A stretch of DNA of 64,000 bases from Sulfuriferula sp. (GTDB lineage: Bacteria; Pseudomonadota; Gammaproteobacteria; Burkholderiales; Sulfuriferulaceae). Location: assembly GCA_013140765.1 (NCBI GenBank), contig JABFSE010000008.1, forward strand, positions 62,001-126,000, read 5' to 3'. How positions within the stretch are numbered: the first letter of the stretch is position 1; each line of letters begins with the position of its first letter. Made by a program: the position numbers and the translations under genes. Of this stretch, positions 10,593-18,092 are shown piece after piece. The notes under the pieces were generated by a model. The model made no database searches, was not told where the DNA came from, and saw only the letters and a list, made by a program, of their open reading frames with translations.

Positions 10593-11051
10593 CTACAAAA
10601 ACCGCTCCAATCGCCGCCGACTGGCGTTATCTAACTGTTCAATATCGTTAATTACAAATTGCAAACCGTGGCTATCGGCGATTAACAGCCGTGTCCATGT
10701 CAGGCGACGGATGTCTTCTTCGCCTTTGAGGGTGAATGTGGTTTCGCCTTTATCGGTGCTGACTTGCCAGATGCTAGGCGTGGCGTAGCTGGAGACGCTG
10801 TTGATACGCTGTATTTCAGGCATAAATTCGCGTTGCGAAAGCAAGGTATTGAGGGCGGTCCGACTGTGTTCGTCTAATTGTGTGATGTCATCTATCCAAG
10901 CTAATTCATTGCCTGTGTTGCTGACGATGGACACCCCCGTATCAGGGGATGATAACGGGAACGCACGCACGGCGACGATGTTGAAATGCGCGACCCCAGC
11001 GTTGTCGGTGTAACACCATGATGCAGGTGTGTGTTGAACTAGGTTAAGCAT
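10593..11051 (-). CDS. DUF1854 protein associated with cyanophycin metabolism
   Basis: A 152-residue protein of the DUF1854 family. It is mostly beta-strand with conserved ELAWIDDITQLDEHSRTAL and FTLKGEEDIRRL, and ends in a helix ERFL. The start at 11051 overlaps the stop of the ABC exporter gene by 8 bases, so the two are translationally coupled. NCBI protein family names link this DUF1854 group and its ABC partner to cyanophycin gene clusters, which agrees with the cphA genes across the divergent promoter. Its biochemical role is not known; an accessory subunit of the exporter is a reasonable guess. Confidence 0.82.
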   Translation of the reverse strand: MLNLVQHTPASWCYTDNAGVAHFNIVAVRAFPLSSPDTGVSIVSNTGNELAWIDDITQLDEHSRTALNTLLSQREFMPEIQRINSVSSYATPSIWQVSTDKGETTFTLKGEEDIRRLTWTRLLIADSHGLQFVINDIEQLDNASRRRLERFL

Positions 11052-13299
11052 CGTCGCCCTCCTCGCTATCGACTTGTCGTGCCTGTGCTTCGTAGAGCTG
11101 CGTGTACATGCCATTACGCGCTAATAATTCATCGTGGTTGCCCACTTCAACGATGCGACCTTTGTCCATCACCACCAGTTTATCGGCATGACGCAAAGTG
11201 CTGAGTCTATGCGCGACCGCAATGGTGGTACGCCCACGCACCAGATTTTCCAGCGCGGCTTGGATTTCACGCTCGGTGGTGGTATCAACCGACGAGGTGG
11301 CTTCGTCGAGGATTAAAATACGCGGGTCTATGAGCAAGGCGCGGGCGATGGAAATACGCTGGCGCTCGCCGCCTGATAGCGCCTGCCCACGCTCACCTAC
11401 CAGCGAGTCATAACCATGTGGCAAACGCAGGATAAAGTCGTGCGCATGAGCGGCACGGGCGGCGGCAATGATTTCTGCGCGACTGGCTTCAGGCTTGCCG
11501 TAGGCTATGTTTTCCGCAATAGTGCCAAAAAACAAGAATGGCTCTTGCAATACCAGCCCAATATGGCGGCGATATTCAGCGACAGGAATACTGCGTACAT
11601 CCACGCCATCTATCCAGATTGCACCTTCGGTGACATCATAAAAGCGACACATCAAGTTCACCAGCGTGCTTTTGCCAGAGCCACTATGCCCAACCAGCCC
11701 TATCATTTCACCAGGCTTAATATGCAAATCCAAGCCGCGTATCACACTGCGGTTGCCATAACGAAAGCCGATATTGCGCAATTCGATTTCACCACGCACA
11801 CTAGGTAAATGCACAGGTTGCACAGGTTCAGGCACACTGGAAACGTGGTCTAGAATATCAAAAATTCGCTTTGCGCCAGCGGCTGATTTTTGCGTCACCG
11901 ACACGATGCGACTCATCGAATCCAGCCGCGAATAAAAACGGCTGATATACGCCAAAAATGCAGTGAGTACGCCCACCGTAATCTGATTATGCGCCACCTG
12001 CCAGATACCAAACGCCCATACGATGAGCAAGCCGATTTCAGTCAGCAAGGATACTGTAGGCGCAAACAGCGACCACACCGCGTTGACCTTGTCGTTAACC
12101 TGCAAATTGCGCTGATTAGCATCACGGAACCGCGCCATTTCGCGGCGTTCCTGCGCAAATGCTTTGACCACGCGGATACCAGGGATGGTATCGGTGAGCA
12201 CGTTGCTAATCTCCGCCCATATTCTGTCGGCTTTTTCAAAACCAAAGCGCAGCTTGTCGCGCACCACGTGTATCATCCAAATGATGAATGGTATTGGCAA
12301 TAACGTAACTAACGCCAACCACGGATTGATGGAAGCCAATATCGCCGCTGTCATCAATATCACCAGCACGTCAGTGGCGAAATCGAGCAAGTGTAGCGAC
12401 AAGAATATGGAAATACGGTCAGTTTCACTGCCGACCCGCGCAATCAAATCCCCCGTGCGCTTGCCGCCGTAAAACGCCAGCGACAAGGTGTGCATATGTT
12501 CATACGTCGCCAAGCGCAAATCCATACAAATACGCTCGCTTACCCGCGCCAGCAAATAGGTGCGCCACCAACCCAAGCCCCAAGCCAATAACGCCGATCC
12601 GAATAGCCCTAGGATATAAGGCATGACTTGATACGCGTCTATGGGTTTACCATTTTGAAACGGTATCAGCACATCATCCATCAACGGCATGGTTAAATAA
12701 GGCGGAACCAGCGTTGCCGCCGTCGCGCCCAGCGTCAACAAGAAACCCAGCACCAATTGCCATTGATAAGGTCGCGCAAATCGCACTAACCGTAGCAGTG
12801 CCCAAGTGGAAGGTGCAACGGCACTCACCTGCTCACAAATCACACAATCGGTTTCGCCTTCAGGCAAGGGGGCGAGGCAATTACTACACACAGCCGAGCC
12901 ATCTTCATCTGTTGCGGTTTGCAAGCGATGGTTAAATGCTTGCACCAAGCGCTGCGCCGCCGCGTTGTGCGCTAAGGTGTAATGCCAAGACGCTAAACGC
13001 GTACCAGCCAGCTCAATATCGATACTCGCCACGCCTGCATAATCACGCCGATGTAGTTGCTGGTTATTAGCGGCAATATCAATAAATTGCCATGCGGCAT
13101 CACCAGCATTTGCCAACAAACGCTGGTTAGTCAGTACCAATACCCCATCGGCAAATTGTAGTTGCGCATCTAAATCCAGCCGCATCCAAGCGACAATAGA
13201 TTCATTTGCGGCAAGCTGAGGGCTTAATTTTTCTGCCCAAACAGCAGGAAAATCATCAGTAAGACTAGATTTTTCAGAGGAAATAACAGACACTGTCAT
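11044..13299 (-). CDS. Cyanophycin-associated ABC exporter (fused membrane and ATPase domains)
   Basis: A 751-residue ABC half-transporter. Residues 1-130 form a soluble domain with a PH-like stretch (VLVLTNQRLL), then a zinc ribbon (CSNC near 136 and CVIC near 152). Six membrane helices occupy about 175-480. The ATPase domain has Walker A GHSGSGKST near 536, signature LSGGERQRISIARALL near 638, Walker B ILILDEATSS near 659 and the H-loop AHRLS. It should work as a homodimer in the inner membrane. The substrate is not shown by the sequence; its place beside cphA'/cphA and DUF1854 suggests cyanophycin-related peptides or amino acids. The N-terminal PH-like plus zinc-ribbon extension is unusual for exporters. 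Confidence 0.88.
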   Translation of the reverse strand: MTVSVISSEKSSLTDDFPAVWAEKLSPQLAANESIVAWMRLDLDAQLQFADGVLVLTNQRLLANAGDAAWQFIDIAANNQQLHRRDYAGVASIDIELAGTRLASWHYTLAHNAAAQRLVQAFNHRLQTATDEDGSAVCSNCLAPLPEGETDCVICEQVSAVAPSTWALLRLVRFARPYQWQLVLGFLLTLGATAATLVPPYLTMPLMDDVLIPFQNGKPIDAYQVMPYILGLFGSALLAWGLGWWRTYLLARVSERICMDLRLATYEHMHTLSLAFYGGKRTGDLIARVGSETDRISIFLSLHLLDFATDVLVILMTAAILASINPWLALVTLLPIPFIIWMIHVVRDKLRFGFEKADRIWAEISNVLTDTIPGIRVVKAFAQERREMARFRDANQRNLQVNDKVNAVWSLFAPTVSLLTEIGLLIVWAFGIWQVAHNQITVGVLTAFLAYISRFYSRLDSMSRIVSVTQKSAAGAKRIFDILDHVSSVPEPVQPVHLPSVRGEIELRNIGFRYGNRSVIRGLDLHIKPGEMIGLVGHSGSGKSTLVNLMCRFYDVTEGAIWIDGVDVRSIPVAEYRRHIGLVLQEPFLFFGTIAENIAYGKPEASRAEIIAAARAAHAHDFILRLPHGYDSLVGERGQALSGGERQRISIARALLIDPRILILDEATSSVDTTTEREIQAALENLVRGRTTIAVAHRLSTLRHADKLVVMDKGRIVEVGNHDELLARNGMYTQLYEAQARQVDSEEGDDA

Positions 13300-13371: not shown

Positions 13372-15516
13372 ATGCCGACTATGACCATTTCACCCCGCGA
13401 CATCAAATTTTTACGCATCATGCCATTACGCGGTCCTAACATTTGGACCTACCGCCCTGTATTAGAAGCATGGGTGGACATTGGTGATTTAGAAGACTCC
13501 CCGTCCAACACCATCCCTGGCTTTAACGACCGTCTTATCGCGCAATTACCCAGCCTCATAGAACACCGCTGTAGCGTGGGTGAGCGCGGTGGCTTTTTGC
13601 AACGTTTACGTGATGGTACTTGGCCTGCACACATACTCGAACACGTCACGCTAGAGTTACAAAATTTAGCAGGTATGCCAGGCGGCTTTGGCAAAGCGCG
13701 TGAGATGGATCGGCGCGGCGTGTATAAAGTCATCGTTCGCGCTTGGCATGAAGATGTCACCCGCGCCAGCCTGCATTACGCACGCGAATTAGTGCTGGCG
13801 GCGATGGATGACCGTCTTTTTGATGTTGATGCCGCCATCGCAAACCTACGTGATTTAGCCGAGTCTAAGCTACTCGGCCCATCCACTTACAGCATTGTTG
13901 ACGCGGCAGATGATCGCAACATTCCTGCGATACGCTTAAACGCAGGTAATTTAGTACAGCTAGGCTACGGCGCGGCACAACGGCGCATCTGGACAGCAGA
14001 AACAGGACAAACCAGTGCCATTGCCGAATCGATTTCACAAGACAAAACACTGACCAAACGACTACTCAAAGACGCTGGCATTCCCGTGCCCGAAGGCGTG
14101 GATGTCAATAGCCCAGCCGATGCTTGGGCAGCCGCTGAAGACATCGGCGTACCTGTTGTGGTCAAACCCTGTAGCGGCAACCACGGTCGCGCGGTATTCA
14201 CTAACCTCACCGAACGCGCAGAAATCGAAGCCGCTTACGATGTCGCACTGGAAGAAGACAGCGGTGTCATTGTAGAACGCTTCATCGAAGGTCAAGAACA
14301 CCGCTTGCTCGTTATCGGCGGCAAGCTCGTCGCCGCCGCACGCGGTGAAATCGCCAGCGTAGTCGGTGATGGCAATCACAGCATTAGCGAACTGATAACA
14401 TTACAGCTTAATTCCGACCCACGCCGTGGCACAACCGAAGAGCACCCGCTCAACCTTATTCGCATTGACAGCGCGGTTAGCCTAGAGCTTGCTCGCCAAG
14501 GCTATGATGCAGATAGCATCGTGGCCGCTGATAGCCTAGTGATAGTGCAACGCATAGGCAATGTTGCGTTTGATTGTACCGACGAAGTCCACCCCAGCAC
14601 TGCCGCTATCGCAGGGCTTGCGGCAAAAATCGTGGGGCTGGATATTGCAGGCATAGATTTGGTGGTTGCCGATATTAGCCGCCCCTTAGCCGAACAAGGC
14701 GGTGCTATCGTCGAAGTCAACGCAGGGCCAGGCTTACTCATGCACCTCAAACCCGCCGCTGGCAAGCCGCGTCCCGTTGGGCAAGCGATAGTCAACCAGC
14801 TATTTTCTGAACAACAAAATGGACGCATTCCTGTTATCGCCGTTGCGGGCAAATCAGACAGTACGGCTGTTGCGCAATTACTGGCGCATTTAGTCTGCTT
14901 AGATAATCAACGTGTGGGATTAGCCAGTCAAGCGGGCTTGTTTATCGGTCGCCGCTTGGTATTAGCAAATAACCGCGCTAACTGGCATGAAGCCCGCAAG
15001 CTATTATTGAACCCACTCATCGAAACAGCCATTATAGAAACACCTGCACGCAGTTTACTCAGCGAAGGTCTGGTATATGACCGTTGTCAGCTCGCTATTT
15101 TGACTGGCATAGATGCCAACGAAGACTTGAACGAATTCGCCATTAACACAGCAGAAAAACGTTTTAACACTTACCGTACTTTTGTCGATGTTGTACTGCC
15201 CTCAGGCGCGGCTATTTTGAATGCCGAAGATGCGCAATTAGTCGAAATGCGTGATCTATGCGACGGCGCAGTGATTTTTTATGCTGAAAACAGCACCTGC
15301 CCCGCTCTAATCCACCATCGCGCCGAACAAGGTAGTGCTGTGACCGTCGTCGAAGGGCATATACGCTTATATCAAGGCGATACCGATACTGATTTTGGCA
15401 GCGTCGCCCAATTCAGCCATATCCCCACGCCCGTATTACTCGCTAGTCTCGCCGCTGCTTGGGCGTTGAATATAGACATAGAACTTATTCGTGCAGGCTT
15501 GCACGCTTACCCTTAG
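13372..15516 (+). CDS. cphA': Cyanophycin synthetase-like protein with degenerate Mur-ligase P-loop (CphA')
   Basis: A protein of 714 residues (711 if translation starts at the ATG at 13381). It has the CphA N-terminal domain (LRGPNIWTYRPVLEAWVDIG), an ATP-grasp domain at about 210-480 (VVVKPCSGNHGRAV, VEVNAGPGL), and a shortened Mur-ligase-like domain. At about residue 490 the ATP-binding loop that is GTNGKTT in the neighbour CphA reads GKSDSTA, losing the lysine-threonine pair. The C-terminal Mur lid domain is also missing. It should therefore catalyse only the ATP-grasp step (peptide bond to Asp), or use Asp-Arg dipeptides as cyanobacterial CphA2 does. A TATAAT at 13362-13367 so close to the first ATG favours the start at 13381. 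Confidence 0.88.
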   Translation: MPTMTISPRDIKFLRIMPLRGPNIWTYRPVLEAWVDIGDLEDSPSNTIPGFNDRLIAQLPSLIEHRCSVGERGGFLQRLRDGTWPAHILEHVTLELQNLAGMPGGFGKAREMDRRGVYKVIVRAWHEDVTRASLHYARELVLAAMDDRLFDVDAAIANLRDLAESKLLGPSTYSIVDAADDRNIPAIRLNAGNLVQLGYGAAQRRIWTAETGQTSAIAESISQDKTLTKRLLKDAGIPVPEGVDVNSPADAWAAAEDIGVPVVVKPCSGNHGRAVFTNLTERAEIEAAYDVALEEDSGVIVERFIEGQEHRLLVIGGKLVAAARGEIASVVGDGNHSISELITLQLNSDPRRGTTEEHPLNLIRIDSAVSLELARQGYDADSIVAADSLVIVQRIGNVAFDCTDEVHPSTAAIAGLAAKIVGLDIAGIDLVVADISRPLAEQGGAIVEVNAGPGLLMHLKPAAGKPRPVGQAIVNQLFSEQQNGRIPVIAVAGKSDSTAVAQLLAHLVCLDNQRVGLASQAGLFIGRRLVLANNRANWHEARKLLLNPLIETAIIETPARSLLSEGLVYDRCQLAILTGIDANEDLNEFAINTAEKRFNTYRTFVDVVLPSGAAILNAEDAQLVEMRDLCDGAVIFYAENSTCPALIHHRAEQGSAVTVVEGHIRLYQGDTDTDFGSVAQFSHIPTPVLLASLAAAWALNIDIELIRAGLHAYP

Positions 15517-15524
15517 GCTAACTC

Positions 15525-18092
15525 ATGGAAATCTCTCGCATACGCGCCTTACGCGGTCCTAATTTATGGAGTCGGCACACCTCAGTGGAAGCTATCGTGC
15601 GTTGCACGCCTAGCGAATCTGACCTTATCAACCAGCCAGATTTTGAAACCCGCTTACGGGCGCGTTTTCCCGCGATAGGCGCATTAGAACCCATAGGCGG
15701 CAACCATCATATATCTATGGCGCACGCATTGGAAGTTGCCGCGTTGGAATTACAAGCTCATGCAGGGTGCTCTGTTACTTTTAGCCGCACCACGCCCACG
15801 ATAGACGCAGGCGTATATCAAATCGCTGTCGAATATACAGAAGAAAGCGTGGGTCGATTAGCCCTAGATTACGCATTGCAACTGTGCTTCGCCGCAACCA
15901 ATAACACGCCGTTTGATGCCGATGCCGCGCTCCATGCGCTACGCGAGCTAGATGAAGATATTCGCCTAGGACCCAGCACAGGTGCTATCGTACAAGCCGC
16001 CGTTAATCGCGGTATGCCGTACCGCCGCTTAACCGATGGTAGCATGGTGCAAATCGGCTGGGGTAGCCGCCAACGTCGCATACTCGCCGCCGAAACTGAC
16101 GCGACCAGCGCCGTCGCCGAAGCCATAGCCCAAGATAAAGAGCTGACCAAAATGTTGCTTGAAGCAGCTTGCGTGCCCGTGCCCGCAGGTCGCCCTGTGA
16201 TCGATGCTGAGGACGCATGGGTCGCCGCGCAAAAAATCGGCTGTGCAGTCGCTGTCAAACCACAATTTGGCAATCAAGGTAAGGGGGTCGCTGTCAATCT
16301 GGAAACCCGCGAACAAGTCATAGCCGCTTATCACGCCGCCAGCAAAATCAGTACCGAAGTCATCGTTGAACGCTACATCACTGGGCACGATTACCGTTTA
16401 TTAGTCATAGGCAACCAGCTCGTTGCCGCCGCCCGCCGCGACCCGCCGCATGTATTTGGCGATGGCGTACATAGCATTGCCGAATTAGTCGCCAACATCA
16501 ATTTAGACCCTCGTCGCAGTGATGGGCACGCCACGTCATTAAGCAAAATCCGCTTGGATGACATTGCCTTGGCAACACTGACTAAACAAAATTTCAGCGT
16601 CGATAGCATTCCCGCTATGGGGGCGTTAGTCGTGTTGCGCAACAACGCCAATCTGAGCACAGGCGGCACGGCAACCGACGTGACCGACGACGTGCATCCT
16701 GAACTCGCTGCCCGTGCCGTGGATGCGGCGCGGATGATAGGGCTGGATATTTGCGGCGTAGATGTATTATGCAATAGCGTACATCAACCGCTAGAACAAC
16801 AAGGCGGCGGTATCGTTGAAGTCAATGCCGCACCTGGCTTGCGTATGCACCTCGCGCCCTCGTTCGGCAAACCGCGTGATGTGGGCGCGGCGATTATTAA
16901 CAGCATGTTTGCCGCTGATGACAATGGACGTATTCCCGTCGTCGCCGTCGCAGGCACTAACGGCAAAACCACCACCGTGCGCCTGACCGCCCACCTGCTC
17001 ACCCACAGCGGCTTGCGAGTCGGCATGACTAACTCCGACGGTGTTTACATTAGCGGGCTACGCATAGACACAGGCGACTGTAGCGGCCCTAAAAGTGCCC
17101 GCAACGTACTAGCTCATCCCGAAGTCGATGCCGCCGTATTAGAAACCGCCCGTGGCGGCGTATTGCGCGAAGGCTTGGCTTTCGACCATTGCGATGTGGC
17201 GATAGTCACCAATATCGGCATAGGCGATCATCTAGGCTTGAATTACATTAACACGACCGACGAGCTGGCAGTGGTGAAGCGTATCATCGTTGAGAACGTC
17301 GCACCGCAAGGTTACGCCGTACTCAACGCTGCCGACCCTGCGGTAGTCAAAATGGCAGACAGTTGCCCAGGTAAGGTTATTTACTTTGCCCAAGAACGCC
17401 ACCACCCTGTCATTGCCACCCACTGCGCACGCGGGCAACGTGTTATCTTTGTCGAAGACGGCTACATCGTCGCTAAACAAGGCGATGTTATCGAACGCAT
17501 TGCGCTGGCTTATATCCCGCTAACGCGCAATGGCAGTATCGGCTTTCAAATCGACAACGCGATGGGCGCAATAGGCGCGGCATGGGCGTTGGGGCTAGAT
17601 TGGGCTATCATCCGCCGAGGAGTGGGCGATTTTGTCAACGATGCGCTCACCGCACCAGGGCGTTTTAACGTATTCGACTATCGCGGCGCAACACTCATTG
17701 CTGACTACGGACACAACCCCGATGCCATCATTGCACTGGTTGCCGCGATAGAGCGCATCCCCGCACTACAACGCCACGTAGTCATTAGCGGCGCAGGCGA
17801 CAGACGCGATCAAGACATCAGCCAACAAACCGAAATACTCGGTGACAAATTCGACCAAATAATCCTCTATCAAGACCAATGCCAACGCGGTCGTGCTGAC
17901 GGCGAAGTCTTAGCCTTATTACGCGCTGGGCTGGTTCATGCCACACGGGTTAAACAAATTGATGAGATAAACGGTGAATTTAACGCCATAGATTTAGCAT
18001 TATCACGCCTACAAGCAGGCGACGTGTGCCTGATATTGATAGACCAAGTTGAAGCAGCATTAGCGCACATTGCCGCTAGGATAGCGACATAG
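15525..18092 (+). CDS. cphA: Cyanophycin synthetase CphA
   Basis: An 855-residue enzyme that makes cyanophycin, an Asp backbone with Arg side chains, from free amino acids and ATP. Domains in order: CphA N-terminal domain (IRALRGPNLW at residue 6), ATP-grasp (about 220-470, with VKPQFGNQGKGVAVNL), Mur-ligase-like central domain with intact P-loop AGTNGKTTT near residue 477, and a C-terminal lid domain with DYGHNPDAI and GAGDRRDQD. All key motifs are present and the length is normal. It starts 8 bases after the stop of cphA', so the two form one operon. The pair layout (cphA', cphA) is typical of betaproteobacteria. Confidence 0.95.
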   Translation: MEISRIRALRGPNLWSRHTSVEAIVRCTPSESDLINQPDFETRLRARFPAIGALEPIGGNHHISMAHALEVAALELQAHAGCSVTFSRTTPTIDAGVYQIAVEYTEESVGRLALDYALQLCFAATNNTPFDADAALHALRELDEDIRLGPSTGAIVQAAVNRGMPYRRLTDGSMVQIGWGSRQRRILAAETDATSAVAEAIAQDKELTKMLLEAACVPVPAGRPVIDAEDAWVAAQKIGCAVAVKPQFGNQGKGVAVNLETREQVIAAYHAASKISTEVIVERYITGHDYRLLVIGNQLVAAARRDPPHVFGDGVHSIAELVANINLDPRRSDGHATSLSKIRLDDIALATLTKQNFSVDSIPAMGALVVLRNNANLSTGGTATDVTDDVHPELAARAVDAARMIGLDICGVDVLCNSVHQPLEQQGGGIVEVNAAPGLRMHLAPSFGKPRDVGAAIINSMFAADDNGRIPVVAVAGTNGKTTTVRLTAHLLTHSGLRVGMTNSDGVYISGLRIDTGDCSGPKSARNVLAHPEVDAAVLETARGGVLREGLAFDHCDVAIVTNIGIGDHLGLNYINTTDELAVVKRIIVENVAPQGYAVLNAADPAVVKMADSCPGKVIYFAQERHHPVIATHCARGQRVIFVEDGYIVAKQGDVIERIALAYIPLTRNGSIGFQIDNAMGAIGAAWALGLDWAIIRRGVGDFVNDALTAPGRFNVFDYRGATLIADYGHNPDAIIALVAAIERIPALQRHVVISGAGDRRDQDISQQTEILGDKFDQIILYQDQCQRGRADGEVLALLRAGLVHATRVKQIDEINGEFNAIDLALSRLQAGDVCLILIDQVEAALAHIAARIAT

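Follow-up and report, generated by a model that had tools for sequence, protein, structure and literature searches.

A neighboring pair of CphA-like proteins with complementary active sites, a candidate two-gene cyanophycin synthetase

Results

Two adjacent genes divide the active sites of CphA1

In the window, i.e., the whole stretch of 64,000 nucleotides of Sulfuriferula sp. DNA that was analyzed, two genes for CphA1-like proteins, here named cphA' and cphA, are arranged head to tail with a spacing of 8 bases. CphA' has an intact zinc-peptidase site in its N-terminal (N) domain and has lost the Asp pocket of its ATP-grasp (G) domain and the ATP site of its Mur-type (M) domain, while CphA has lost the N site and retains the Asp pocket and the Mur ligase site. 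This complementary presence and loss of sites goes together with conservation of the retained sites, consistent pairing of the two genes and a phylogeny that groups them. We propose, with a probability of roughly 0.57, that CphA' is a primer-making endo-cyanophycinase subunit and the partner of CphA in a two-gene synthetase. According to this proposal, a single CphA1 would have been duplicated once, and its sites would have been split over two genes. CphA would be the polymerase, its G domain adding Asp and its M domain adding Arg, and would have lost the N zinc site. We infer that the zinc peptidase of CphA' would cut long cyanophycin into short chains, acting in trans on CphA, which would extend them, and that the two proteins would act together, probably in a mixed oligomer. 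The M domain of CphA', which would not bind ATP in most lineages, would be kept as a scaffold and as a wall of the N-domain cleft, and its G domain would have lost the Asp pocket. If true, this would illustrate clearly how, in nature, a multi-site enzyme can share out its sites after duplication, and it would provide a ready-made control of primer supply in cyanophycin production. As a tentative extension, the pair might be an obligate two-subunit synthetase in beta-proteobacteria, in which the N domain of CphA' would be the sole cyanophycin hydrolase (primer maker as well as missing cyanophycinase) and the two ATP-grasp sites would be linked.

The locus contains the following genes:

13372-15516, + strand: CphA', 714 aa; N, G and M-core domains of the CphA1 type, M lid absent
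15525-18092, + strand: CphA, 855 aa; N zinc site lost; retains the Asp pocket and Mur ligase site; Gln251 at the His267 position
11044-13299, - strand: ABC transporter, cyanophycin metabolism-associated (NF052233; 1339 bits, cut-off 880)
10593-11114, - strand: DUF1854 protein, cyanophycin metabolism-associated (NF052234; 200 bits, cut-off 150)

The genes for the ABC transporter and the DUF1854 protein, whose names are those of NCBIfam, lie upstream of cphA' in divergent orientation, and homologues of each are found beside the pair at 76 of the 80 named loci. Using the NCBIfam equivalog for CphA1 (TIGR02068; cut-off 850 bits), CphA passes with 960.2 bits, and CphA' falls below the cut-off with 688.7 bits. 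The genome that contains the window (G000) comprises 2,175,092 bases in 40 contigs and is 100% complete.

Residues are numbered as in TeCphA1 (PMC9427784), and N-domain and polymer-contact residues as in SuCphA1 (PMC9262961). Our first alignment included 110 CphA' and 106 CphA sequences with those of the window; a later alignment included 132 distinct CphA' orthologues, which remained of 152 after removal of near-duplicates, and sequences of <600 aa as well as L158, an odd protein with none of the sites, were also left out. Because the residue pattern traces to one duplication, the 132 rows do not represent 132 independent events.

CphA', but not CphA, has the N-domain zinc-peptidase site

The N site of CphA' maps as follows:

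13564-13644, + strand: metallopeptidase motif H65-x-C67-x19-H87-x2-E90-H91, intact (by alignment; H57, C59, H79, E82 and H83 of SuCphA1)

In CphA1, the Cx19HxxEH zinc-peptidase motif of the N domain makes primers, and it is present in 83% of non-redundant CphA1s (PMC9262961). All five residues of the site are intact in 132/132 distinct CphA' orthologues, and so is the inverzincin-like endo-cyanophycinase pattern as a whole (Cx19HxxEH together with H57, F67 and R70). The earlier note had described the N domain of CphA' as complete, which agrees with our data; the broken N domain is that of the neighbor. Among 106 pairs, 104 cover both N helices, and in every one of these CphA' has the motif and CphA lacks it. 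HxxEH is found in none of the 106 CphA sequences of the first alignment; outside that alignment, three CphA sequences (L182, L183 and L185) have a partial motif without Cys59.

The earlier note had also proposed a structure prediction and an alignment with CphA2. The AlphaFold2 model of CphA', made from an input alignment of 44 rows (L077, which has a stop, and L084 were left out), has a mean pLDDT of 89.6 and is confident in the M core. It fits SuCphA1 (7txv; 701 residues aligned, Z 48.6, rmsd 3.7) better than CphA2 (7ta5; 572 residues aligned, Z 24.8, rmsd 4.2).

The ATP-grasp domain of CphA' has ATP and Mg residues and no Asp pocket

The relevant positions in the G domain of CphA', all identified by alignment, are:

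14176-14190, + strand: P-loop GNHGR; His271, corresponding to His267 of TeCphA1, is retained
14344-14346, + strand: Gly325 in place of the Asp-binding Arg323 (role of Arg323 from PMC9427784)
14548-14574, + strand: G-omega loop, 5 residues shorter, Asp-pocket Ser396 missing (loop alignment; gap in 110/110)
14737-14739, + strand: Leu456 in place of the Asp-binding Arg458

The ATP-grasp domain had been thought complete, and this is true of its ATP and Mg residues; the Asp pocket is reduced to a Gly, a gap and a Leu. R323, S396 and R458 are lost in 132/132 CphA' orthologues. Because the pocket is lost throughout, and given that the R323A, R458A and S396W substitutions impair or abolish activity (PMC9427784), CphA' should not add Asp, and the suggestion that it does is unlikely to hold. 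The G-site residues K220, K261, H267, R309, D431 and E450 are all retained in 119/132 orthologues; N394 is scored as retained only via the alignment of the loop that is 5 residues shorter. Judged from these residues, the G domain of CphA' can probably bind ATP and a polymer end, without a place for incoming Asp. The conservation of the ATP/Mg residues, His267 and Arg309 in 119/132 orthologues suggests a further ATP-dependent activity of the G domain that lies outside our main model, and this second activity may use another acceptor.

In the remaining 13 of the 132 orthologues (G249, G138, G510 and ten further rows of family f123), the G site has decayed: R, L or A replaces H267, and two of the sequences also have a change at D431 or E450. 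These sequences belong to family f123 except that G510 comes from the window's order, and the N site is intact in 13/13. The N site thus appears to be the part that CphA' cannot do without.

The Mur-type domain of CphA' is degenerate and retains two polymer-contact positions

Three features of the Mur-type domains bear on the ligase site and its fate:

14848-14868, + strand: degenerate Mur-type P-loop GKSDSTA, CphA' residues 493-499 (alignment)
15175-15189, + strand: Arg602 and Asp606 of the CphA' M core (S603 and E607 of SuCphA1); R and D in 132/132
16953-16973, + strand: intact Mur-type P-loop GTNGKTT of CphA (alignment)

The earlier note had contrasted GTNGKTT in CphA with GKSDSTA in CphA' and had reported that CphA' lacks the C-terminal lid, and both statements are confirmed. 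Lys481 of CphA aligns with Lys499 of TeCphA1, the equivalent in CphA' being Ser497, and the cphA' open reading frame stops before the lid with Arg731 and His748. In addition, the catalytic Asp585-His586 is replaced by Glu584-Asp585 in CphA', so that this protein of the window has none of the M-site residues K499, D585, H586, R731 and H748, whereas its neighbor CphA retains all five. In agreement with this, Pfam Mur_ligase_M and Mur_ligase_C match CphA and neither matches CphA'. The P-loop Lys is retained in 56/132 CphA' orthologues, and the complete Mur site and lid in 23/132 (Pandoraea, Ralstonia, Cupriavidus and a few others). Because these 23 retain the whole site, Mur-site loss does not define CphA'.

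The M core of CphA' has a mean identity among CphA' sequences of 0.52 versus ~0.72 for the N and G domains, and only 8 of its 236 positions are invariant. The S603 and E607 positions are both among these eight, and the chance that two named positions would both be invariant is ~0.001. In the cryo-EM structure of SuCphA1, S603 and E607 of the M domain contact the polymer inside the N-domain cleft (PMC9262961). From this pattern of conservation, the M core of CphA' seems to be retained as a wall of the N site.

CphA retains both ligase sites and has Gln in place of His267

One position distinguishes the G domain of CphA from that of CphA1:

16275-16277, + strand: Gln251 of CphA at the position of His267 in TeCphA1 (alignment)

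CphA of the window has every residue of the Asp pocket and of the Mur ATP site that we tested (R305, S378, R440, K481, D568 and H569). Of 106 pairs, 103 retain R323, S396 and R458 in CphA and 3 have gaps there, and the Mur triad is retained wherever the sequence reaches, except in one row that has lost the P-loop Lys. The suggestion that the pair divides labor, with CphA performing both ligations, fits these data, since the Asp pocket and the Mur site are kept in all covering rows bar one.

His267 of the ATP-grasp P-loop seems to stabilize the acyl-phosphate in TeCphA1 (PMC9427784). We counted this position in 133 pairs, leaving out rows gapped at 267 (103 of the 106 pairs of the first alignment were used), and found Gln in 127 of 133 paired CphA; given this substitution, Asp addition by CphA itself is putative. 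CphA has His267 in 6 of the 13 pairs in which CphA' has lost it and in 0 of the 120 pairs in which CphA' has it (Fisher p = 2.5e-7, kinship ignored). All six cases are in family f123, and few events therefore underlie this linkage.

Pairing and phylogeny fit one duplication

As controls, we used unpaired CphA1s from the class and the phylum. The N, G and M sites occur together in 21 of 24 of these proteins, i.e., in 9/9 of the first set besides L128 and in 12/14 of the second set (two of the 12 with Ser for Thr500). The exceptions are L152 of the second set, which is L128 again, L195 of the second set, and G437 as the 24th protein, which has the N, M and Asp-pocket residues but Gln267. The unpaired CphA1 of G057, a genome of the window's order, retains every site. 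In a first survey of the order, at least two matches were found in 29 of the 32 genomes having a match; the three with a single match are G033 (the odd protein L158), G057 and G047, whose CphA' is close to the end of a contig. In a second survey, 24/24 genomes having a match had two (CphA' of G554 was found separately). At 80/80 named loci, which were found with CphA' as the query, CphA follows CphA' in the same orientation.

In a tree of the G domain made with a quick method, 34 CphA form one clade (support 98) and 33 CphA' form another (99). Together with the lone gene of G437, these clades form a larger group (99) that excludes the other unpaired CphA1s. This topology is what a single duplication would give if each copy then lost different sites.

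Alternative explanations

Within CphA', constraint is strongest at the N site, which would also suit a protein that is above all the missing intracellular cyanophycinase, cutting stored polymer with its N domain and supplying primers only secondarily. Profile searches of the genome that contains the window found no cyanophycinase (TIGR02069, PF03575), IaaA (PF01112) or IadA dipeptidase (TIGR01975), and in a census of CphA1 the beta-proteobacteria, with 903 of 1,614 genomes the largest group, have a recognized cyanophycinase in only 2.8% (PMC10206079, Table 2). We nevertheless regard this explanation as unlikely: SuCphA1 cleaves slowly at its N site, the products being 4-mers rather than dipeptides (PMC9262961), cphA' is located directly upstream of the synthetase gene, and because the genome lacks the known dipeptidases, something else must finish the breakdown. 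A primer-making CphA' may also mobilize polymer, since cyanophycinases are usually absent from beta-proteobacteria and the searches of this genome yielded none. It is also rather improbable that the G domain of CphA' acts as a ligase with chemistry like that of CphA2, using cyanophycin chains or beta-Asp-Arg dipeptides in place of Asp. The retention of the six G-site residues in 119/132 orthologues despite the lost Asp pocket speaks for such a ligase, as does the presence of His267 in CphA exclusively in pairs whose CphA' has lost this residue, which would fit a link between the two G sites. Against it, each of the 13 orthologues with a decayed G site still has the N site, for which reason a ligase activity would be dispensable; moreover, CphA2 is reported to lack the N motif (PMC9262961), the model of CphA' is closer to CphA1 than to CphA2, and no source of dipeptides was found in the genome that contains the window. 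The latter result likewise argues against the reuse of dipeptides by CphA' that the earlier note had considered, as a recognized cyanophycinase would be the source. The model of that note as a whole, which assigns Asp addition or dipeptide reuse to CphA' and both steps to CphA, draws on the ATP and Mg ligands in the G domain of CphA'; it is very improbable in view of the universal change of the Asp-recognition positions, and it leaves the intact N site unexplained.

A different and perhaps exported polymer, rather than ordinary cyanophycin, might be made by the pair. The ABC transporter and DUF1854 genes would fit such a product, as would the report that the Ralstonia eutropha genes gave no cyanophycin (PMC8560796), and so would the E215 position, which is Ala, Ser or Thr in 106/106 CphA. 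In TeCphA1, E215 holds the side chain of the terminal Arg, but SuCphA1 with E215A keeps about half of its activity (PMC9427784). The position varies in unpaired CphA1s too, and CphA retains both the M site for Arg addition and the Asp pocket; we therefore consider another polymer distinctly unlikely. Finally, the low identity of the M core is what would be expected of a decaying and useless copy, and for the L097/L112 species pair a dN/dS of 1.4 was obtained from the small number of CphA' lid codons that align (n=23). This explanation is scarcely credible, however. The dN/dS is <0.4 for N, G and M core in 9/9 species pairs with measurable synonymous change, where synonymous change was saturated in several comparisons with the window, the CphA side was compared in all but one of the 9 pairs, and the use of stop-to-stop open reading frames may have included upstream non-coding codons and inflated the N-domain values. 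CphA' is present in every genome of the second survey of the order that has CphA, and both copies are evenly expressed in Accumulibacter (PMC10687191). By dN/dS, pairing and conservation, we rejected CphA' as a pseudogene, an idea that is largely refuted.

Comparison with known synthetases

CphA1 (SuCphA1, 7lg5 and 7txv; TeCphA1, 7wac) shares with CphA' the N-G-M-core order, the fold over 701 residues, the N zinc site and the ATP and Mg residues of the G domain. It differs in having all sites in one protein, whereas in the window the Asp pocket, Mur ATP site and lid are missing from CphA' and the N site is missing from CphA. CphA2 has lost the Mur site, lacks the lid, retains the ATP-grasp domain and polymerizes beta-Asp-Arg dipeptides. 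Like cyanobacterial CphA2 (7ta5, 8fxh), CphA' of the window combines a retained ATP-grasp domain with loss of the Mur ATP site and lid, and CphA2 had been put forward as a precedent for it. The precedent fails: CphA2 is described as lacking the N motif (PMC9262961), which CphA' has in 132/132 orthologues, and CphA' is nearer to CphA1 in sequence and structure and is a member of a proteobacterial duplication.

The proposed division of labor between CphA' and CphA has counterparts in experiments on CphA1. The N domain of SuCphA1 has a slow endo-cyanophycinase activity, whose main products are 4-mers that serve as primers, and SuCphA1 with dead G and M sites renders the primer-dependent TmCphA1 primer-independent in trans (PMC9262961). 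An engineered SuCphA1 heterodimer (N-G+M+ / N+G-M-), in which one protomer carries the N site and its partner the G and M sites, is functional, if somewhat less so without primer (PMC9262961). That heterodimer was made by laboratory mutations, whereas the pair appears natural and widespread; by analogy, CphA' and CphA look like its natural version. TmCphA1, which lacks the N motif, is active alone when given primer (PMC9262961), and loss of the motif in CphA therefore need not imply a helper.

The gene pair itself is already known. Group 1 clusters of non-cyanobacteria contain the same kind of neighboring cphA pair with an ABC transporter and no cphB (PMC10687191), and the neighboring CphA1 and CphA2 named in Sideroxydans (PMC5178258) are the same kind of pair. 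The passages on the pair in these two papers do not describe complementary active-site loss, and the main text of PMC9262961 has nothing on a paralog, two copies, Burkholderia or Bordetella. In a literature search that covered mainly freely accessible papers, we did not find complementary site loss in the pair described before.

A synthetase made of two genes, with its hydrolase residing on the partner protein, would bear on the scarcity of cyanophycinases and on the R. eutropha homologues that yield no polymer. According to reviews, the homologues of R. eutropha H16 gave no cyanophycin when overexpressed or in Escherichia coli (PMC8560796; PMC11362209). Unless synthesis requires both subunits and suitable conditions, this result speaks against the simplest view. 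Adames et al. in 2013 reportedly noted that a loop is missing from the second R. eutropha protein.

Additional cphA-like genes

The lone gene of G437 (L188 / L253), which belongs to the paired lineage, encodes a single chain that combines N site, Asp pocket and Mur site and already has Gln267. This genome is fragmentary, and the short contig ends inside the gene and carries an ABC transporter-like open reading frame; the gene is likely truly unpaired. G554 has a third cphA-like gene (L195) in addition to the pair; it has lost the N motif and has Gln267. G033, a genome of the window's order that has no pair, encodes a lone CphA-like protein of 775 aa (L158:3897-6221) with none of the N-site, Asp-pocket and Mur-lid residues (V267, I323, C458). 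In G263 (L152 and L144), a degenerate CphA1-like gene (K267, A396, N585 and no N site) occurs in the same genome as a gene for an ATP-grasp protein of 639 aa, a length like that of CphA2. At seven loci (L119-L122, L124, L125 and L157, in G317, G105, G228, G209, G295, G290 and G057), a CphA1 gene is followed by a gene for a separate protein of ~560-590 aa that matches the M domain only, and the one that we mapped (L157) retains K499, D585, H586, R731 and H748.
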